This document shows, piece by piece, positions 7,597 through 26,130 of a DNA stretch of 64,000 nt. Source of the DNA: Flagellimonas aurea (lineage in GTDB: Bacteria; Bacteroidota; Bacteroidia; Flavobacteriales; Flavobacteriaceae); the NCBI RefSeq assembly GCF_017313785.1, contig NZ_JAFLNL010000002.1:62001-126000 (forward strand), read 5' to 3'. The position numbers and the translations under genes were made by a program. Every line of letters starts with the position of its first letter. The stretch's first letter is position 1. The notes under the pieces are model-generated. The model was not told the DNA's origin. It made no database searches and was given only the letters and a program-made list of their open reading frames with translations.

Positions 7597-8163
7597 TTAT
7601 TCTTTCGCACGTTCCAGGTAAGCTCCTTTTTCGGTGTCAATTTTAATCTTGTCACCCTCATTGATGAAAAGAGGCACATTGATACTCGCCCCTGTTTCAA
7701 CGGTAGCGGGCTTGGTAGCATTGGTCGCCGTGTTTCCTTTTACCCCAGGTTCTGTATGGGTGACTTCCAAAACAACACTTGCTGGCATTTCAACCGAAAG
7801 CGGCATATTGTCCTCGGCATTGAAAATGATTGTAACGACTTCGCTTTCTTTTAGCAAATCGTATGCATCAAGAGCATCCCTTTGCAAAGCAATCTGTGTG
7901 TAATCGTCCGTGTTCATGAAGTGATAGGTCTCACCTTCACTGTACAAAAATTGATAACTACGTGTTTCTACACGGACATCTTCAATTTTGTGTCCTGCGG
8001 AAAACGTATTGTCAATCACCTTTCCAGTGGTGACACTTTTCAATTTGGTTCGGACAAATGCGGGTCCTTTGCCAGGTTTCACATGAAGAAATTCTACGAT
8101 CTTGTAGATATCGTGATTGTACTTGATGCACAATCCTTTTCTTATATCAGAAGTACTTGCCAT
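7597..8163 (-). CDS. efp: Elongation factor P
   Basis: Binds ribosomes stalled on poly-proline and helps peptide bond formation. 188 residues with the three-domain OB-fold layout. The N-terminal KOW-like domain carries the conserved tip lysine in KPGKGPAFVRTKLK (Lys32 here). The C-terminal domain ends with TGASINVPLFINEGDKIKID, the EF-P signature region. It sits between lpxA and the second lpxD-like gene with gaps of 4 and 6 bp, which places it in the lipid A operon, a common arrangement in Flavobacteriaceae. Confidence 0.96.
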   Translation of the reverse strand: MASTSDIRKGLCIKYNHDIYKIVEFLHVKPGKGPAFVRTKLKSVTTGKVIDNTFSAGHKIEDVRVETRSYQFLYSEGETYHFMNTDDYTQIALQRDALDAYDLLKESEVVTIIFNAEDNMPLSVEMPASVVLEVTHTEPGVKGNTATNATKPATVETGASINVPLFINEGDKIKIDTEKGAYLERAKE

Positions 8164-8167
8164 AAAT

Positions 8168-8953
8168 TTAATTTGAACTGAAATAACCTTTCATAATTCC
8201 ACGTTGCGAATCTCTTATAAATTGAAGGATCTCATCTCGCTCTGGAGTCGCCTCCATTTCAGCTTCAATAATGGATGCCGCTTGGGAATTGTTATAATTT
8301 TGTTGATAGAGTAGTCTATAAATGTTTTGGATTTCACGAATCTTATCCGATTCGAATCCCCTTCTTCGTAATCCAATGGAATTGATACCTACGTAAGATA
8401 GTGGTTCCCTTGCCGCTTTCACGTATGGAGGTACATCTTTACGTACCAAAGAACCACCTGTTACAAAAGCATGGTTTCCAATGGAAACAAACTGGTGAAC
8501 GGCTACCATACCTGCCAAAACCACATTCTGACCGATGGTGACATGTCCCGCCAAAGTAGAGTTGTTACTGAAAATACAGCCATCACCCACAAAACAATCG
8601 TGTGCAACATGGCAATAGGCCATAATCAAACAATTATTTCCAATCACCGTTTTCATACGGTCGGAAGTACCTTTGTTAATCGTGGCACATTCCCTGATCG
8701 TTGTATTGTCACCAATTACAACTGTGGTCTCCTCACCTTGATATTTAAGGTCTTGAGGCATTGCGGAAATTACGGCTCCAGGGAAAATACTACAGTTTTT
8801 TCCAATTCGAGCTCCTTCCATTATGGTTACGTTGGAACCAATCCAAGTTCCCTCACCTATCGTTACATTATTGTGTATCGTGGTAAAGGGTTCGATCACC
8901 ACATTTTTGGCGATTTTGGCTCCTGGGTGTACATATGCTAGAGGTTGGTTCAT
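8168..8953 (-). CDS. lpxA: Acyl-ACP-UDP-N-acetylglucosamine O-acyltransferase
   Basis: First committed step of lipid A synthesis: transfers 3-hydroxyacyl from ACP to UDP-GlcNAc. 261 residues. Left-handed beta-helix of hexapeptide repeats with the family segments VHPGAKIAKNVVIEPFTTI, SAMPQDLKYQGEETTVVIG, the catalytic His region AYCHVAHDC near residue 120, and a helical C-terminal domain (IREIQNIYRLLYQQNYN). The ATG directly abuts the stop of lpxC-fabZ, so the two are translationally coupled. Cytoplasmic trimer by family knowledge. Confidence 0.96.
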   Translation of the reverse strand: MNQPLAYVHPGAKIAKNVVIEPFTTIHNNVTIGEGTWIGSNVTIMEGARIGKNCSIFPGAVISAMPQDLKYQGEETTVVIGDNTTIRECATINKGTSDRMKTVIGNNCLIMAYCHVAHDCFVGDGCIFSNNSTLAGHVTIGQNVVLAGMVAVHQFVSIGNHAFVTGGSLVRKDVPPYVKAAREPLSYVGINSIGLRRRGFESDKIREIQNIYRLLYQQNYNNSQAASIIEAEMEATPERDEILQFIRDSQRGIMKGYFSSN

Positions 8954-19040: not shown

Positions 19041-19895
19041 TTAAATCCCAATGCTCAACTTTTCTTTTTTCTTGTTGTTGAATACTGCGTAGAGGGCAAC
19101 TATCAAAATTATTTGAAACAAAATTGCTAAAACAGAGCCTTCAAAACCGAAATCCCCTCCGCTGACCCAGGTGTCCTGTGTGGTTCTAAACTCGATGAGA
19201 GAATAGGAGTCAAGACCACTTACATTAAACCCAAATAGGGATTGAAAGAAATTCCAGCTAAAATGGAAAGCAATGGGAAACATGAGGTTTTTGGTATAGA
19301 TGTAGGGCAAGCCCAATAAAACCCCTGCAAGAAAAAGGTTGATGTTTCCAATCAGGGAGAGATTTGGATTGGCCGCATGCATAAGCGCAAAAAATAGCGC
19401 AGATACAAATAAAGCCACATACTTGTTCATGGACTCCATAAAGTTTCGTAGAACATATCCGCGAAAAAATATCTCCTCGGATATAGAAACTATGAGAAAT
19501 AAAAAGATGGCCATTAAAAACTCACCACCCAAGAATATGGTCTTTGCATACTCTATTTGATTTAAAGCATCGAGAACTAAATATCCAGCAACCATAATGA
19601 ACAAACCCGCAATTAGCCCTAATAAGATGCCTTTTTTATGATTTTTAAAATGCAGGCCAACGTCAGCAAAGCGTTCATCATCGACCAACTCGACAAACAG
19701 ATAAATTACGAATAATGTACCCAATAAACCGAAGAATGAAGTGATGAGATGCTGTTCGGTTGTTTCTTGTACGTATTCAGGTGAAATTTCTTTACCTGAT
19801 ACATATGCCCCAGCAAACTGGAAAAGACCAACAATAAAAAAGTATGGGACTATAATTAGAAGTATACGAACCCAGCCTTTGTTTTTTGATTTCAT
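19041..19895 (-). CDS. CPBP-family intramembrane protease
   Basis: 284 residues with about seven to eight membrane segments. All three CPBP (Abi/Rce1-like) signature parts are present: SEEIFFRGYVLRNF (EExxxR), ALMHAANPN (His motif) and FPIAFHFSWNFFQS. Such proteins are glutamic-type intramembrane proteases. In peptide-bacteriocin loci of Gram-positives, homologues give self-immunity or process peptides. Here it is the last gene of the minus-strand peptide locus, 70 bp after a second CPBP-like gene, so a role in processing or immunity is plausible but it could be an independent gene. Confidence 0.85.
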   Translation of the reverse strand: MKSKNKGWVRILLIIVPYFFIVGLFQFAGAYVSGKEISPEYVQETTEQHLITSFFGLLGTLFVIYLFVELVDDERFADVGLHFKNHKKGILLGLIAGLFIMVAGYLVLDALNQIEYAKTIFLGGEFLMAIFLFLIVSISEEIFFRGYVLRNFMESMNKYVALFVSALFFALMHAANPNLSLIGNINLFLAGVLLGLPYIYTKNLMFPIAFHFSWNFFQSLFGFNVSGLDSYSLIEFRTTQDTWVSGGDFGFEGSVLAILFQIILIVALYAVFNNKKKEKLSIGI

Positions 19896-19965: not shown

Positions 19966-20628
19966 TCAATAATAATTAGAGATGTAATTTATAGTTGGTA
20001 GGATGTAAAAAATCATATTTAATCCAAACGAATAATAGACCCCATTTTCTCTGGCAATTTTTGCCAAGTAGAAAGCTTTTATTGACATGACTGTAAAGAA
20101 CATGAGGTATAAAGGCCAATTCTCATTCTCAAAAATTAAAACAAATCTTATTTGTGATAAACATGAAAAAAATACGACAATCCAAAAAAGATAGGAAAGA
20201 AATTTACTTTTCAAATTTGTTTTTTTTACATAAAGAATTCCTATTATGGATAGATAAACTATTATGATTACGCTTAGAAATTTGTCACCTGAAAAAAAGG
20301 AGTACGCCAAAAATAAAACTCCCGCAAATGCAGAAACATTTATATTACTTTTCTTTTTATCTAATTGCAGTCTAAATGTCAATTCTTCAATTAATGGCAT
20401 CAATATCAGACTGAAAATCAGAAGTGAAAAAAGGCTATGCTTAATCAAGGAAATATTTTTGAAAATGATATTAACATTTTCATATGGTATTTTCACACCA
20501 ATAAAATAACATACTAATGCTACGAAGCCATTTATGATGCCAGAATAAATTAATATGTAAAGTAAATACAAAAAAACATACCCTAAACTATGCTTTAGAG
20601 TATGTTTGTTTTTTTTTGAATCAGTCAT
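19966..20628 (-). CDS. Diverged CPBP-like membrane protein, candidate immunity protein
   Basis: 220 residues, six or more hydrophobic segments, very A/T-rich coding. The first CPBP motif is present as PLIEELTFRLQ (EExxxR), but the second, His-containing motif is not found: the expected region reads GVLFLAYSFFSGDKF. The third region is SFGLNMIFYILP. Protease activity is therefore doubtful. It starts 21 bp after the third double-glycine peptide and ends the three-peptide run. Abi/CPBP proteins directly downstream of double-glycine bacteriocins commonly give self-immunity, which is the most likely job here. This is inference from position and family. Confidence 0.75.
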   Translation of the reverse strand: MTDSKKNKHTLKHSLGYVFLYLLYILIYSGIINGFVALVCYFIGVKIPYENVNIIFKNISLIKHSLFSLLIFSLILMPLIEELTFRLQLDKKKSNINVSAFAGVLFLAYSFFSGDKFLSVIIIVYLSIIGILYVKKTNLKSKFLSYLFWIVVFFSCLSQIRFVLIFENENWPLYLMFFTVMSIKAFYLAKIARENGVYYSFGLNMIFYILPTINYISNYY

Positions 20629-20649: not shown

Positions 20650-20811
20650 TCAAAAAATGTCAAATATTGATTTTAATTGCCGGACAGTATTTCCTATTGC
20701 TCTACCAATTGCACAACCAATATTCATTCCAGCTTGGACATCTGGGTCATTACTTGTTGCACAACCACCGTTGATGTCTCTTAATTCATTAACTTTTAAA
20801 TATATTATCAT
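20650..20811 (-). CDS. Double-glycine leader peptide 3 (bacteriocin-like, 53 aa)
   Basis: 53 residues from ATG 20811 (MIIYLKVNELRDINGG) to TAA-type stop at 20650. The leader LKVNELRDINGG fits the C39 consensus LxxxELxxIxGG; cleavage after Gly16 would release 37 residues beginning CATSNDPDVQ. The product has two cysteines (17 and 33), possibly a disulfide, and a small-residue helix GMNIGCAIGRAIG with GxxxG spacing, as in two-peptide pore-forming bacteriocins. An upstream in-frame ATG at 20853 would add 14 hydrophobic residues and overlap peptide 2; the shorter start gives a normal leader. It lies 10 bp after peptide 2 and 21 bp before the CPBP-like gene. Confidence 0.8.
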   Translation of the reverse strand: MIIYLKVNELRDINGGCATSNDPDVQAGMNIGCAIGRAIGNTVRQLKSIFDIF

Positions 20812-20821
20812 AATTATTATT

Positions 20822-20992
20822 TTAAGATTTAACACCCTCATCAAATCCTTCACTAATACCAGTTAACACGCCTAGGCCAAAAAGAAATGCGCCTGCAGCA
20901 AGAACACCAGTTTTATAGAAGAATCCCTTGTGGCCACCGTTAATATTCAATAACTCTTGATTTGAAATTTCTGTGATTCCTTTATATTCCAT
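20822..20992 (-). CDS. Double-glycine leader peptide 2 (bacteriocin-like, 56 aa)
   Basis: 56 residues from ATG 20992 to TAA at 20822-20824. The leader MEYKGITEISNQELLNINGG is a textbook match to LSxxELxxIxGG (ISNQELLNINGG). Cleavage after Gly20 leaves 36 residues starting HKGFFYKTGV, with a Gly/Ala-rich hydrophobic core (GVLAAGAFLFGLGVLTG) and a charged tail. This is the composition of a membrane-active class II bacteriocin. It begins 9 bp after peptide 1 and ends 10 bp before peptide 3. Confidence 0.82.
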   Translation of the reverse strand: MEYKGITEISNQELLNINGGHKGFFYKTGVLAAGAFLFGLGVLTGISEGFDEGVKS

Positions 20993-21001
20993 GATATATA
21001 A

Positions 21002-21184
21002 TTATTTTGTGTTAGCTGTAAACCTGTCTATAAAACCATTTGCAAAATCAAAGGCAGCATGCGCCCCAGCTAAGCTTAATGATAGACTGCCTCTAAATAA
21101 AGAACCCATTCCAGTTGATAAGCTACCCCCAGAAATAGATTTGGAACTATCAACTGATAGTTCAATTAATACTAAATCTTTCAT
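21002..21184 (-). CDS. Double-glycine leader peptide 1 (bacteriocin-like, 60 aa)
   Basis: 60 residues, ATG at 21184. The leader MKDLVLIELSVDSSKSISGG ends with LSVDSSKSISGG, keeping L(-12), S(-11), I(-4) and GG of the C39 consensus but with Ser for E-L at -8/-7. Cleavage after Gly20 leaves 40 residues beginning SLSTGMGSLF, rich in Ser, Gly, Ala and Leu, with FRGSLSLSLAGAHAAFDF as the likely amphipathic part. It is the first of three tandem peptide genes; two dyads lie in the 131 bp between the HTH gene and its start. Confidence 0.82.
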   Translation of the reverse strand: MKDLVLIELSVDSSKSISGGSLSTGMGSLFRGSLSLSLAGAHAAFDFANGFIDRFTANTK

Positions 21185-21315: not shown

Positions 21316-21627
21316 TTAAAATTCCAATAGTTGAACCATATTTTTGAAACTATATCCACCCGAAAGGTTCCGCTCAGATGTTTCATCTAATTCTTCCATA
21401 TAAAAACCACATTTAAAATTGGTGGTTTCCGTATACACATAACTTTGCCGTGCCAGATCATAACAAATGGGGGCATTAAGTTCTTTCATCGTCTCTATCA
21501 TTCTAAACACGGTTGCCTCCGAAACCTCTAGCCGATCAGCTAATTGTTTGGGCCTTCCTGTAGCTTTTAATCGTATCAATTGGTCAATTCGTTCTAAAAC
21601 TGCTATTTGTTGTGTAAGCTTTGCCAT
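21316..21627 (-). CDS. Small HTH regulator with C-terminal double-glycine site (A)
   Basis: 103 residues. The N-terminal winged-helix/HTH_11-like domain (about 5-66) has ERIDQLIRLKATGRPKQLAD and RLEVSEATVFRMIETMKEL. After a short strand region comes LDETSERNLSGG at 80-91, keeping L(-12), L(-4) and GG of a C39 leader, and a 12-residue tail YSFKNMVQLLEF. It aligns along its whole length with the regulator at 24555-24914 (LNAPICYDLARQSYVY against LNAAICYSRSRKTYYY), including the position of the GG. It starts 14 bp after the exporter gene. Likely regulator of the peptide genes; whether its tail is cut by the C39 peptidase is a hypothesis. Confidence 0.75.
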   Translation of the reverse strand: MAKLTQQIAVLERIDQLIRLKATGRPKQLADRLEVSEATVFRMIETMKELNAPICYDLARQSYVYTETTNFKCGFYMEELDETSERNLSGGYSFKNMVQLLEF

Positions 21628-21641
21628 AAACGTAAAATTTA

Positions 21642-23819
21642 TCAGTTAACAGGTTTAAGTATGGATAGGAATGAAGGCACTTGTTGTTGCCACAACTTAA
21701 AATAAGCCCCTTTTTGATCATATAATTGGTAATGCGAGCCCTCTTCCAAAACTTGGCCTTTGTCCAATACCACTATTTTATCCGCATTGATAACAGTACT
21801 CAACCTATGGGCTATAATGATTACGGTTTTGCCCTCAGAGCGTAAATTATCAATGGTTTTTTGCACATAATTCTCCGAGTTACTATCTAAAGAGGAGGTG
21901 GCTTCGTCCAATACCAAAATTTCTGGATTTTTATACAATGCCCTTGCAATGGCTATCCGCTGCTTTTGACCACCTGACAAGGATGCACCATTCTCACCTA
22001 AATAAGTGCTAAAGTCGTTGGGAAGGCTCTCAATAAAATCCAAAATACCAATGTCCTTGCATATTTTGTGAATCTTTTCAAAATCAGGTTGGAGTTCCCC
22101 TACCGCAATATTCTCAATAACATTCCCAGCAAACAGGTCAATTTTCTGAGGCACTACACTTATCAAATTACGGAGACTATGGTTTTCTATATGGTTAATA
22201 TCTATGTCCCCGATTCGGATTTTGCCTTTATTAATGGGATAGATGTTCTGTATGAGGGATACAAGGGTCGATTTTCCTGAGCCACTTTCCCCCACAAAGG
22301 CAGTTATGCTGCCTTTCTGAATGGTCAGGTTTAAATTTTTAAAGACTTCGACCCTTGTTCCATACTGAAAACATACCTCCGAGAAGGTAATGTCATCAAC
22401 CTTATCCCTACTGAACACTAAATTTTTATCTTTCTCCTCTCGCTCCAAATCCATAATTTCAAAAAGCCGGTCAGCTGCTATAAGGGCATTTTGAATTTCT
22501 TTATTTGCTCCTATCAAACTGCTCAATGGCCCAGTAAAATATCCAATAATGGCATAGAACGATAATAGCTCGCCAGGGCTAATCTGTCTTTCAATAACAA
22601 ATCCGGAACCTGCCCAAAGCAATACTATAATGAATACTTGGGAAATAGCTTTTGATGATGTTTGGGAAAAAATGGTGTTCAATGCGGAAGTGTATCCCGT
22701 TCTCAAAAGTGTAATAAAACGAGTCTCGGTTTTGATATTGGCAAAATCTTCCAATCCAAATCGTTTAATGGTACCTACCGAATTCAAGGACTCCACCAAT
22801 TGACTTTCCAGATCGGCAGCATTTTCCATGACCCTACGTGCTACTTTCCTGTTGAGTTTGTTTACAATCCAATAAATTAGAGAGTAAACCGGAATTATGA
22901 TCAACATGATCAGGGCCAGCTTCCAATAATACGTGAACATCAAAGCAAACGAGAAAATCACGATAAGAATATTCACCGTCAGATTAAGGGACACTCCATT
23001 GATAAAGTTTCTAATCTTGACCGCATCATTGATTCGGGATATGATCTCCCCTACTCTCATGGTGTCAAAAAATTGTTGGGGCAACTTTAATAAGTGTTTG
23101 TAATAGCCCAAAATCAAACGAGCATCAATCTGCTGACCTGTCTTTAAAAGGAAGGTGTCCTTATAATACCCAATAGCGAGTTGGACTACTAATAGGACAA
23201 TCATTACGACACTCAACAAGTTCAATAGTTGCGCATTTCCATCTACCAAGACGTGGTCCGTTATTTTTTGAATATAAATAGATGTGGAAAAACCCAATAG
23301 CGTGTATACCAAAGCACCAACAAAAGCTTGAATAAGTACCGCTCTATGTGGTTTCAGTAAGAACCAAAACCTCTTGAATACAGATACCTTTTCATTTCCT
23401 TTTTCAAAAGTCTCGTTGGGCAGCATCAGTACCAAAACACCGGTCCACTCCTTTTTAAAATCCTCATGGCTTCGCTTTTCCAGTTTCCCCGTGCCAGGAT
23501 CCATGACCTTTATGTATGTTTTGGTCACTTTGTAAATCACCACATAATGATGTAATCGTTCACGAACTATTACATGTGCAATGGTTGGTTTGGGTATCTT
23601 AAATAGACTTTCAAAATCACCACGGACCCCTTTTGCTTCAAACCCCAACTTCTCGGCCGCTTTAATAAGACCATAAACATTTGTTCCTTTTTTATCGGTG
23701 CCTGCATATTGCCGTATGCGTGAAATAGGTATTTGAAAATTGTAGTGTGCTGAAATGGAAGCCAGGCAAGCAGCCCCACAATCTGTAATATCGTGTTGTT
23801 TGATTGTTGTTTTTGTCAT
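21642..23819 (-). CDS. Peptidase-containing ABC exporter (C39 peptidase, PCAT)
   Basis: 725 residues from ATG 23819 (MTKTTIKQHDITDCGAACL); an upstream ATG at 23840 would add 7 residues ahead of the conserved start. Domain order: C39 cysteine peptidase (1-130) with Gln8, Cys14 in DCGAAC, His91 in LHHYVVIY and Asp107 in VMDPGTGK; six-helix ABC membrane domain (about 155-440); nucleotide-binding domain (about 475-725) with Walker A VGESGSGKSTL, signature SLSGGQKQR, Walker B ILVLDEATSSLD and H-loop IIAHRLS. It removes double-glycine leaders and exports the peptides. All catalytic residues are intact. Seven candidate substrates with GG motifs flank it. Confidence 0.95.
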   Translation of the reverse strand: MTKTTIKQHDITDCGAACLASISAHYNFQIPISRIRQYAGTDKKGTNVYGLIKAAEKLGFEAKGVRGDFESLFKIPKPTIAHVIVRERLHHYVVIYKVTKTYIKVMDPGTGKLEKRSHEDFKKEWTGVLVLMLPNETFEKGNEKVSVFKRFWFLLKPHRAVLIQAFVGALVYTLLGFSTSIYIQKITDHVLVDGNAQLLNLLSVVMIVLLVVQLAIGYYKDTFLLKTGQQIDARLILGYYKHLLKLPQQFFDTMRVGEIISRINDAVKIRNFINGVSLNLTVNILIVIFSFALMFTYYWKLALIMLIIIPVYSLIYWIVNKLNRKVARRVMENAADLESQLVESLNSVGTIKRFGLEDFANIKTETRFITLLRTGYTSALNTIFSQTSSKAISQVFIIVLLWAGSGFVIERQISPGELLSFYAIIGYFTGPLSSLIGANKEIQNALIAADRLFEIMDLEREEKDKNLVFSRDKVDDITFSEVCFQYGTRVEVFKNLNLTIQKGSITAFVGESGSGKSTLVSLIQNIYPINKGKIRIGDIDINHIENHSLRNLISVVPQKIDLFAGNVIENIAVGELQPDFEKIHKICKDIGILDFIESLPNDFSTYLGENGASLSGGQKQRIAIARALYKNPEILVLDEATSSLDSNSENYVQKTIDNLRSEGKTVIIIAHRLSTVINADKIVVLDKGQVLEEGSHYQLYDQKGAYFKLWQQQVPSFLSILKPVN

Positions 23820-23971: not shown

Positions 23972-24106
23972 TTATTCAATGTTTGTCTTTTTAAAGCTGC
24001 TTTTCTCTTTGTCGGCTCGTCCATCCAAATAACCTACCAAAGTGAATATAACAATAACAAAAGTTATTGCCCAAAGGATGATATTTTTAATACTACTCTC
24101 TTTCAT
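23972..24106 (-). CDS. Leaderless membrane peptide of the peptide locus (44 aa)
   Basis: 44 residues from ATG 24106 (MKESSIKNIILWAITFVIVI). One strong hydrophobic segment (about 9-25) is followed by GYLDGRADKEKSS and a basic tail. There is no double-glycine leader. The GYLDGRADK segment matches GYADGRRDK at the end of the double-glycine peptide encoded just upstream, so the two are related in their mature part. A membrane-resident relative of a secreted peptide could act as an immunity peptide, or be a peptide that lost its leader. An upstream in-frame ATG (24163) would add 19 residues and is less likely. Function not established. Confidence 0.6.
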   Translation of the reverse strand: MKESSIKNIILWAITFVIVIFTLVGYLDGRADKEKSSFKKTNIE

Positions 24107-24185
24107 AATTGAAATATTTTTAAAACCTATGTCAAAAATAAGATTTAAGGTTCCTTTCTTCAAAAAAAAGGAACCTTAAATAATA

Positions 24186-24341
24186 CTATTGTTTGTCACG
24201 TCTTCCATCAGCATAACCGATAGACATGCTAAAAACTATTATTCCTACAATAATAGGCAAAATGCCTCCATTGATACTTTTAAGACTTTTCTTTTCTAAA
24301 GGAATAACATTATACTTTTCTAATTTAAGATTATTGAGCAT
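24186..24341 (-). CDS. Double-glycine leader peptide 5 (51 aa)
   Basis: 51 residues from ATG 24341 to TAG 24186-24188. Leader of 26 residues ending LEKKSLKSINGG, with L(-12), L(-7), I(-4) and GG as in C39 substrates. The released part is only 25 residues: a hydrophobic run ILPIIVGIIVFSMSI followed by GYADGRRDKQ. That tail is shared with the leaderless membrane peptide at 23972-24106. Spacing to the preceding peptide gene is 16 bp. Bacteriocin or signal peptide; the short, single-helix product resembles a membrane-inserting toxin or pheromone. Confidence 0.78.
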   Translation of the reverse strand: MLNNLKLEKYNVIPLEKKSLKSINGGILPIIVGIIVFSMSIGYADGRRDKQ

Positions 24342-24357
24342 AGCATTGATTTTTAAA

Positions 24358-24510
24358 TTAAACACGGCCTAAGAGATATCCTATCGTATAAAAAGGAAAG
24401 AAAATTACAGCTGCAACTTCATTGTAATTTTCAGGCATTCCCCCTCCATCAATAGAAAGCATTTCATTTGAGTCCAGTCTTTGAACATCTAATTTCTCTA
24501 AATTCATCAT
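24358..24510 (-). CDS. Double-glycine leader peptide 4 (50 aa)
   Basis: 50 residues from ATG 24510 (an adjacent second ATG at 24507 is possible) to TAA 24358-24360. The leader ends LDSNEMLSIDGG, a full match to L-x-x-x-E-[LM]-x-x-I-x-G-G. A third Gly follows; cleavage after Gly23 leaves 27 residues, GMPENYNEVAAVIFFPFYTI and then GYLLGRV. The ending again shows hydrophobic-GYxxGR, like the next two ORFs downstream. It starts 44 bp after the HTH regulator B stop. Confidence 0.8.
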   Translation of the reverse strand: MMNLEKLDVQRLDSNEMLSIDGGGMPENYNEVAAVIFFPFYTIGYLLGRV

Positions 24511-24554: not shown

Positions 24555-24914
24555 TTATGCGCATATTCTTACTTTGTTGAGACCACAGTACTTTTGTCCA
24601 CCGCACGAACCTTGCAGGAAAGATTTTTTCTTTAAAAAATAACTTCCCCCATAAATTTCGGTCACCTCGTTGTTGCTCAACACGGTAACAGAAATGTTTA
24701 TCATTAATTTGAAATCATCACAATAGTAATATGTTTTTCTACTCCTGCTATAACATATAGCAGCATTTAAATGTTTTAGCTCCTCTACAAGCTGGTACAC
24801 TTTACGTTCGCTGATGCCCATAAGGGCTGCCAGTTCTTTGGGAGTGCCCGTATTTTCACCTTCAATGAGCAAGTGTAGACGTTGCAGACGTTCAAGGTTC
24901 TTAATGTTGTTCAT
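24555..24914 (-). CDS. Small HTH regulator with double-glycine leader and Cys tail (B)
   Basis: 119 residues from ATG 24914 (MNNIKNLERLQRLHLLIEG); an upstream start at 24956 lacks family support. The HTH domain (about 4-65) reads NTGTPKELAALMGISERKVY and is homologous to regulator A. At 79-90 lies LSNNEVTEIYGG, a perfect C39 leader pattern (L-12, S-11, E-8, V-7, I-4, GG). A 29-residue tail follows with cysteines 104, 110 and 118 (SCGGQKYCGLNKVRICA) and net positive charge. The DNA-binding protein thus carries a predicted peptidase site and a peptide-like tail. It lies between the HlyD adaptor (55 bp) and the peptide genes. Regulator role likely; processing untested. Confidence 0.75.
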   Translation of the reverse strand: MNNIKNLERLQRLHLLIEGENTGTPKELAALMGISERKVYQLVEELKHLNAAICYSRSRKTYYYCDDFKLMINISVTVLSNNEVTEIYGGSYFLKKKSFLQGSCGGQKYCGLNKVRICA

Positions 24915-24969: not shown

Positions 24970-26130
24970 TCAATAATCTTTTTTCTCTTTTGAAGAAGGA
25001 TTCATCCAATCGTCAACCTTGTCATATAAGAGCTGGTACAGGGTCCTTTCGGTGAGTTCAAAGCGAGCATTAAAAGTCATCCCCTTTTTTATGGTTCCCT
25101 TTGCTCCATTTTTAAGTTCCAAAAACTCCTCGTTTATCTGACATCTCATCTTAAAAATTGGTTGCTCATTGATCAATTCTATATCTTCCGAAATCTCCAA
25201 GATTCTTCCCGTTGCCAAGCCCCATTGGTTGTAGTTAAAGGCGTCTATCTGAAAATTAACTGGTTTTGACTTGTCGATAAGTCCTATATCCAGTGGGCTC
25301 ACATAACATTCGGCCAACAACCTTGTATCGGGGGATATCTCAGCCAACAAGGCTCCAGATGTTACAATACTGCCCCTTTCAATCCCCATTGGATTCACTA
25401 TGGAACCCGTTACAGGGGCGGTAACTATATGTTCATTTTTACTCTGTAAATATTGGGAGTTTTTGTTTTGGGTAATTTCCAATTCATTCTTCAACGCTGT
25501 CAAACTGGACTCCCATGTGTTGAATTGTTGCTTTTTGAACTGATTAAAAGCATTTAAGGCTAAATCATATTCCAATTTGATGTTTTCAAACTCAGCTTTT
25601 GCAATCACCCCTTTGTCCAAAAGTTTGTGATTACGGTCAAAATCAATTTTTAATTTCTTTATTCGAGTTTTATGTTCAAAGGAGACTTCTATAAACTGAA
25701 AATACTCCTTTTGGTATTTTGCCGATTGAATGCTATCGCTTAATACTGGCCTTTGGGTCAAAAGATATTGTAGGTCCCCTATTTCTTCCGATAACCTTTT
25801 TGTATCATATGTGGTAAGGGCAATTTGTTCATTGAGCACGTTGTTCTGAATGATTAGCAATACATCCCCTTTGTTTACATATGTATTACTTTGGATGTTG
25901 GAAAACAATACTTTTCCCGAATTAAGACTTGTTATGGCAATACGTTCCTTAGAAGGTTTGACCAAGCCTTGTGCATTTTTATAGATTTTCACCTTTAAAA
26001 AAGGCATAGCGCAGATAGCCAACAGGGTAGTAGTTAATATTATTCCATAAACCACCCTGCTCTTCACCCCATTTTTAGGAATGTAAGATTGAATTGTATT
26101 ATCAATAATTTCTTTAGGAAAAATTTGCAT
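24970..26130 (-). CDS. HlyD-family adaptor of the peptide exporter
   Basis: 386 residues. A short cytoplasmic N-terminus is followed by one membrane segment (about 27-43, VYGIILTTTLLAICAMP), a biotinyl-lipoyl-like half (GKVLFSNIQSNTYVNKGDVLLII), a long coiled-coil hairpin (about 110-225), the second lipoyl half (IVTAPVTGSIVNPMGIERGS) and a beta-barrel. This is the periplasmic membrane-fusion protein that joins a PCAT inner-membrane exporter to an outer-membrane TolC channel; no TolC gene is in the window. It is the first gene of the minus-strand locus, behind a near-consensus promoter and an 18-bp dyad. Confidence 0.9.
   Translation of the reverse strand: MQIFPKEIIDNTIQSYIPKNGVKSRVVYGIILTTTLLAICAMPFLKVKIYKNAQGLVKPSKERIAITSLNSGKVLFSNIQSNTYVNKGDVLLIIQNNVLNEQIALTTYDTKRLSEEIGDLQYLLTQRPVLSDSIQSAKYQKEYFQFIEVSFEHKTRIKKLKIDFDRNHKLLDKGVIAKAEFENIKLEYDLALNAFNQFKKQQFNTWESSLTALKNELEITQNKNSQYLQSKNEHIVTAPVTGSIVNPMGIERGSIVTSGALLAEISPDTRLLAECYVSPLDIGLIDKSKPVNFQIDAFNYNQWGLATGRILEISEDIELINEQPIFKMRCQINEEFLELKNGAKGTIKKGMTFNARFELTERTLYQLLYDKVDDWMNPSSKEKKDY

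Follow-up and report, generated by a model that had tools for sequence, protein, structure and literature searches.

A family of predicted winged-helix-turn-helix regulators with an exporter-type leader at a flavobacterial C39 peptidase locus

To our knowledge, the matching of peptide production to exporter capacity in Gram-negative bacteria is largely an open problem. A locus of Flagellimonas aurea raises the question of whether a DNA-binding regulator could itself be a client of the peptide exporter encoded beside it. The window, by which we mean the whole 64,000-nucleotide stretch that was analysed (contig NZ_JAFLNL010000002.1, positions 62,001 to 126,000), contains a gene for a 119-residue predicted regulator with a C-terminal exporter leader, HTH-B. 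The coordinates in the initial annotation, 24555..24914, were kept and the strand was corrected to minus, so that the gene runs from 24914 to 24555; a plus-strand reading was rejected, with stops in the frame of these coordinates. All genes of the locus lie on the minus strand, in the order HlyD-type membrane fusion gene (24970..26130; HlyD_3, 46.2 bits), which is directly upstream of HTH-B, then HTH-B itself, peptide genes, a C39 peptidase ABC exporter gene (21642..23816; assigned by Pfam and by alignment with PCAT1), HTH-A and further peptide genes. The peptide genes ahead of the exporter gene encode the double-glycine precursors LDSNEMLSIDGG (24358..24510) and LEKKSLKSINGG (24186..24365; TIGR03949 above the cut-off), and those past HTH-A encode LSVDSSKSISGG (21002..21184), ISNQELLNINGG (20822..20992) and LKVNELRDINGG (20650..20853). 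HTH-A, a paralogous regulator of 103 residues that ends in LDETSERNLSGG plus 12 residues, is encoded directly past the exporter gene (21316..21627) and is the sole other family member found in the genome; its nearest named relatives are from Muricauda, Allomuricauda and Flagellimonas.

Further features of the locus are recorded here for their own sake. A strong terminator-like hairpin of 18 pairs (24143..24181, minus strand) lies past the first two peptide genes and ahead of the exporter gene, and the expression of the peptides may be separated from that of the exporter. A small membrane-like open reading frame at 23972-24163 on the minus strand, without a double-glycine leader, contains GYLDGRADKEK, which resembles GYADGRRDK near the end of the precursor encoded at 24186-24365; its product could be a leaderless partner or an immunity protein. 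Two membrane-protein genes follow the second peptide group on the minus strand. The product of 19041-19895 is a CPBP-type (Rce1-like) protease by Pfam, and that of 19966-20628 is weakly so by NCBIfam; both are possible immunity or processing genes.

The initial annotation read residues 79-90 of HTH-B as a perfect C39 leader, followed by 29 residues with three Cys. Both statements hold for the 119-residue protein. The stretch LSNNEVTEIYGG (24645..24680, minus strand; predicted cut after Gly90) has Leu at -12, Glu at -8, Val at -7, Ile at -4 and the Gly-Gly pair, and the 29-residue tail comprises residues 91-119 (24558..24644, minus strand). HTH-B has all the hydrophobic residues of a classical double-glycine precursor at -12, -7 and -4 together with the Gly-Gly, and the stretch resembles the leaders of the double-glycine peptides encoded in the window. 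A search of all six frames of the window gave a single match to the strict pattern L[ST]..E[LVIMF]..[ILVM].GG. We built a leader matrix over positions -12 to -3 from 55 precursor leaders of exporter-linked loci (defined below) and compared scores with a background of 4877 12-mers ending in [GAS]G from 1225 open reading frames in 1.43 Mb of fetched loci. HTH-B scored 11.95 bits, which was reached by 2 of the 4877 background 12-mers, both of them true precursor leaders. A chance origin of the match was rejected on this background. The corresponding stretch of HTH-A (residues 80-91; 21355..21390, minus strand), which has Glu at -7, is weak and lies at the 1.1% background level. The leader of HTH-B begins at residue 79 and not at the N terminus as in classical precursors. 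We considered a separate small peptide starting at an internal Met71, which would give a classical precursor of 49 residues, and rejected it, Met not being the common residue there; in the linked members Gln is the commonest at position 71 (28%). The observation made on HTH-B is confirmed as real.

The part in front of the leader was said to be a helix-turn-helix (HTH) domain, and an AlphaFold2 model computed from a 33-row alignment bears this out with a confident winged-HTH fold from residue 1 to about 68 (residues 1-68, 24711..24914, minus strand). Helices span residues 3-18, 25-32 and 36-48, and strands residues 53-56 and 61-64. The pLDDT is 76-94 per block of ten over residues 1-70 and below 50 for residues 77-86 and 88-119, so the leader and the tail fall outside the confident fold. 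The top Foldseek matches are mostly winged-HTH regulators, including the DNA-binding domains of NiaR, IclR, BirA and CggR, with a best E of 0.047 and no match for HTH-B at E <= 0.001. HTH-B stays under the Pfam HTH cut-offs (HTH_11, 20 bits vs 25), HTH-A passes that of HTH_11 (25.2 bits vs 25), and PF08279 is annotated in 25 of 117 homologues (precomputed annotation, counted by hand). Scans of HTH-B against Pfam and NCBIfam found no nitrile hydratase or Nif11 family, the best matches being sub-cut-off HTH models.

The C39 peptidase placed in the same locus by the initial annotation is present, with a Pfam E of 9.5e-37. The closest solved chain to the exporter is that of PCAT1 (4ry2, E 1.7e-171), aligned over nearly the whole length, and the catalytic Cys, His and Asp align with the PCAT1 triad. 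The exporter keeps the hydrophobic groove residues in this alignment, Val and Ile standing at the places of PCAT1 Ala55 and Ile59 (our own mapping onto the published numbering). According to PMC6959990, -7 and -12 of the leader form a hydrophobic knot, the cut-site cleft is narrow, and cutting by PCAT1 is strictly coupled to transport. PMC6363468 describes LahT150 as requiring only the last 13 leader residues, as tolerating Tyr or Phe at -3, and as cutting MBP-tagged peptides with nitrile-hydratase-type leaders.

The initial annotation had staked its proposal beforehand on the Gly pair being conserved among the homologues of HTH-B. The pair is conserved: by pattern, 98 of the 117 homologues have GG, 15 have AG, one has SG and three have none. 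Likewise, GG occurs past residue 70 in 99/114 homologues of HTH-A. The rows of one alignment (A1) were picked for carrying the motif, and its invariant Gly90 is no evidence by itself; searches with A1 favour such members, and a profile search (293 proteins, 120 of them listed) was left out of all counts. In the homologues, Ser-Tyr-Phe (SYF) is common right after the GG. Among the 19 homologues of 119 residues, the window's own included, Tyr92, Phe93 and Gln101 are found in all 19, Cys104, Lys114 and Ala119 in 18, and Cys118 in 17. Two of the three tail Cys, Cys104 and Cys118, are therefore conserved; the third, Cys110, is present in 1/19. In this group the median pairwise identity falls from 0.70 in the HTH part to 0.67 in the leader and 0.55 in the tail. 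Unlike what is expected of the NHLP and Nif11 leader families, conservation does not end at the Gly-Gly, SYF and tail positions being kept in these 19 proteins. Judged by these sequences, HTH-B belongs to a conserved family whose members are predicted regulators that are linked to exporters and bear an exporter leader, and the finding is larger than the single case first described.

The association with the exporter was examined at two levels. Among 299 genomes of the bacterial family, the HTH family occurs in 39, C39 domains in 89 and both in 28 (Fisher p 6e-9, ignoring relatedness). We then collected loci of up to 20 kb around most matches together with 14 named loci, some matches lying on short contigs or being taken at less than 20 kb. 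Before counting, we excluded the duplicates L004 and L010 and the short or split matches L009 (first piece), L065 (two fragments), L076 and L085. Of the resulting 87 rows, 35 have a linked C39 exporter of the same kind as in the window, 31 have no C39 nearby, 7 have only a C39 that is of a more distant kind or on the opposite strand, 3 have broken exporters and 11 could not be judged. Two loci were labelled linked by hand: L012, in which the C-terminal (ABC) part of the exporter is directly upstream at the contig start and the contig has no C39 domain, and L088, in which an intact C39 is 4 kb away. For 31 of the 35 linked regulators, the distance between open frames to an HlyD or C39-ABC gene is at most about 150 bp; those farther away are L092, L094, L095 and L115.

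We defined the full motif with tail as hydrophobic residues at -12 and -4 together with [GAS]G and at least 10 tail residues. With this definition and a 190-bit C39 threshold, both chosen after the data had been seen, 34/35 linked regulators have the full motif and tail, vs 5/31 without C39 nearby or 7/38 when those with another C39 kind are added (Fisher ~1e-12, ignoring relatedness). The difference persists when the comparison is restricted to unlinked copies retaining an extension (34/35 vs 7/27). In the aligned extensions, a hydrophobic residue at -12 is found in 34/34 linked vs 15/27 unlinked members, Gly, Ala or Ser at -2 in 34/34 vs 16/27, and Gly at -1 in 34/34 vs 21/27. The hydrophobic -4 is unchanged (34/34 and 27/27), and that at -7, the position stressed in papers, hardly changes (26/34 vs 15/27). 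The tail has at least 12 residues in 34/35 linked forms. The shortest family forms, of 68 to 79 residues, stop soon past the wing (L099-L102, L104-L107, L077, L079, L081 and L083; the linkage of some could not be judged). With the leader matrix, 28 of the 34 linked regulators with a full stretch score above the 99% background level and 15 above 99.9%, compared with 10/19 and 0/19 of those without C39 nearby, and 2/3 and 1/3 of those beside another C39 kind.

Part of this association could reflect ancestry. On a tree of the HTH part only, seven independent pairs on supported branches gave a mean of 4.5 pairs pointing the same way and 0.0 the opposite way, with a median p of 0.0625 for motif plus tail and 0.25 for the motif alone. 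The tree-corrected trend is consistent in direction with the raw counts and is not significant. There are also individual exceptions. The seven unlinked copies with motif and tail (of 38) are L056, L059, L060, L080, L090, L093 and L097, and the linked L058 stops before the GG, two residues after ISNNEITKI, with no long open continuation in the other two frames. L046 (~8100-8300, minus strand) contains, between the regulator and the exporter gene, the leader and tail of the HTH-B relative a second time, in a broken form with an internal stop. In the genome G016, the four family members each lie on a contig of their own: L073 has a C39 exporter next to it, and L074, L075 and L119, with none on the stretch examined, have short tails or an altered Gly pair. 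L117 has HlyD and C39 fragments, an intact HTH-A relative with GG, and a second, diverged HTH protein without the motif.

For comparison, we scanned a further 40 C39 loci from this bacterial family (L120-L159), none of which contains a protein of the HTH family. At 5 bits or more, the leader matrix found 41 matches, 40 of which lie within 35 residues of the first possible start and come from 19 of the 40 loci. The remaining match is due to chance, being inside a long protein with a 260-residue tail, and apart from it the control loci lack strong internal leaders at this threshold, which with the control-scan matrix captures just 18/34 linked regulators. A more permissive scan (hydrophobic residues at -12 and -4, [GAS]G, a tail of 8-45 residues, open reading frame of at most 200 residues, more than 55 residues in) gave 12 internal stretches, two of them, at 2.7 and 1.0 bits, in NHLP leader proteins, which are a class already known for long leaders. 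These NHLP leader-type RiPP precursors, in L120 (16503-16829, plus strand) and L122 (13078-13410, minus strand), match TIGR03793 at 53.3 and 62.3 bits (cut-off 50.9), have a leader that lies 76-78 residues in and a tail of 21 residues, and are recognized by the same family library that was applied to HTH-B. The idea that internal leaders are peculiar to the HTH family was therefore not supported, and the exporters of these bacteria evidently meet precursors with a domain ahead of the leader, which makes proteins of this build plausible clients. What appears special to the HTH-B family is that this domain is a predicted regulator. Some control loci (e.g. L121, L136 and L156) contain sets of Cys-rich double-glycine precursors without a family regulator.

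Whether the leader-like stretch is cut can be considered from the residues around the cut site. Linked regulators have Phe or Tyr at -3 in 28/34 cases, and Gly, Ala and Ser at -2 in 25, 8 and 1 of the 34, respectively. Among 56 GG-type precursor candidates from 30 linked loci, position -3 is occupied by Asn in 22, by Asp in 10 and by Tyr in 1, the lists being limited to classical features and including a few doubtful candidates (one, from L050, was kept out of the matrix). Ala or Ser at -2 concerns 9 of the 35 linked regulators; seven of these nine loci yielded precursors, with Gly at -2 in 13/13, and the 3 AG precursor matches in linked loci look spurious. Cleavable motifs are described as GG, GA or GS (PMC6363468 and PMC10885120). 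These differences would fit docking without cutting, in which the regulator, as a pseudosubstrate, parks on the C39 domain and is freed when precursors fill it, the tail staying unexported. We consider this unlikely: plain GG is present in 25/35 linked regulators, and a docking protein has no need of a tail of at least 12 residues (34/35 linked) with a conserved Cys pair (119-residue group). Moreover, among 40 N-terminal leaders of the control loci, AG is found in 1/40 (L150) and Phe or Tyr at -3 in 4/40. The credible AG precursor in the C39 locus L150 indicates that Ala at -2 need not prevent cutting, and both counts indicate that true precursors can carry these residues, so that a regulator with either change may still be a true substrate. 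For the part of the family with Ala or Ser at -2, slower cutting or docking only may apply.

If the tail is cut off, the HTH domain might be nothing other than a long leader, similar to that of NHLP precursors, with the tail as the product, a pheromone or a bacteriocin-like peptide, and with DNA binding irrelevant. The anatomy is indeed alike, a domain of other ancestry, GG, a short tail and a link to an exporter (PMC2887384); 2/40 control loci encode such precursors, and Cys104 and Cys118 are conserved in the 119-residue group. The 32 linked and 25 unlinked members, however, share the consensus at 11/13 positions of the recognition helix and 10/14 of the wing, which indicates that the HTH part has not decayed, and the tail is not hypervariable, with its identity of 0.55 against 0.70 for the HTH part and SYF often retained after the GG. 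We regard the long-leader explanation as quite improbable. Equally improbable, in our estimate, is a structural coincidence, in which the amphipathic stretch and the Gly pair are a dimerization or capping element of an ordinary regulator. Some exporter-less relatives do retain GG, -4 is constant and -7 nearly so, and the association uncorrected for relatedness leaves room for it. Yet members without the exporter have often lost the tail and the contact positions -12, -2 and -1 but kept other parts of the stretch, AlphaFold2 does not fold the stretch confidently, and the leader score stands out from the background.

The explanation that we prefer is that HTH-B is a predicted winged-HTH regulator and a client of the exporter, probably cut after Gly90, through which gene control is coupled to export capacity; we put its probability at about 0.5. 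The proposal that the regulator is an exporter substrate gains from the exporter linkage and from the loss of the motif in most copies without the exporter, and is weakened for the linked regulators with Ala or Ser at -2. The shared cutting signal, together with the lack of the full signal in most sampled exporter-less relatives, suggests that the exporter holds or cuts the regulator. Client status is the best supported reading, and the regulatory circuit is what we infer from it. The C39 peptidase domain would bind the flexible leader of HTH-B and, in the GG forms, cut after Gly90. In PCATs, C39 leaders remain in the cytosol, for which reason the HTH part would be retained inside while the short tail is exported. 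Precursors and regulator would compete for the peptidase domain, and how much of the regulator is whole rather than cut, or docked rather than free, would report spare export capacity to the controlled promoter. As cutting in PCAT1 is strictly coupled to transport, what becomes of the regulator would be a readout of exporters that work and are unoccupied. The controlled promoter would most simply be that of its own operon, as the HTH-B gene sits within it. In 32 stretches upstream of hlyD, k-mer and inverted-repeat searches gave nothing convincing as a shared operator; the common words are all A/T-rich and a few are just above shuffles (8-mer in 13 vs 12 stretches, 9-mer in 10 vs 7, 10-mer in 6 vs 5, dyad in 5 vs 4). 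A further-reaching version, in which DNA-binding regulators are processed by the C39 peptidase of their own exporter and the tail is secreted, so that one protein would be transcription factor, exporter sensor and secreted-peptide precursor, is possible but doubtful. If the client reading is true, a regulator with the recognition signal of the exporter would be a direct molecular link between peptide production and exporter capacity, and DNA-binding proteins would join the substrates of peptidase-containing exporters. An HTH domain with an internal double-glycine leader behind it would also serve as a new search handle.

How HTH-B relates to known systems depends on which part is compared. Like the precursors of PCAT/AMS systems (PCAT1-CtA, LahT-LahA and ComA-ComC), it has hydrophobic residues at -12, -7 and -4, Glu at -8, Gly-Gly, a short tail and an adjoining exporter gene (PMC6959990 and PMC6363468). 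Unlike these, its leader is internal, behind a regulator part of 78 residues, -3 is usually aromatic in the family, and the half that becomes the product would be split off a predicted DNA-binding protein. NHLP and Nif11 (N11P) precursors, as presented in PMC2887384, use as their leader a domain of other ancestry that ends in GG, carries a short tail and tracks an exporter, as in HTH-B. In NHLP precursors conservation stops at the GG and the tail is hypervariable (same source), whereas SYF and parts of the tail are conserved in the HTH-B family, and the domain of HTH-B is a predicted regulator that exists also without the leader. A cluster-mining study of Bacteroidales mentions an HTH gene in a cluster (PMC10352776), and we found no mention of an HTH-leader fusion in the available parts of PMC10352776, PMC8939145 and PMC6671954, nor, among the open-licence papers listed by text searches, a title or abstract opening that reports a regulator with a double-glycine leader. 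The model proposed for HetC of Nostoc (PMC10986499) has the N-terminal piece of a PCAT substrate stay inside and act on a regulator; there the substrate is unknown, whereas here the predicted regulator itself bears the leader. Within the literature so covered, a secretion-coupled control circuit for type I peptide export would be without counterpart. A secretion-coupled regulator is known from the flagellar export system, namely FlgM. If the client reading of HTH-B is true, the two would be alike in that export competence is read via a regulatory protein handled by the exporter, and they would differ in that HTH-B acts with a type I exporter and its peptidase, the DNA-binding part staying inside and the tail leaving.
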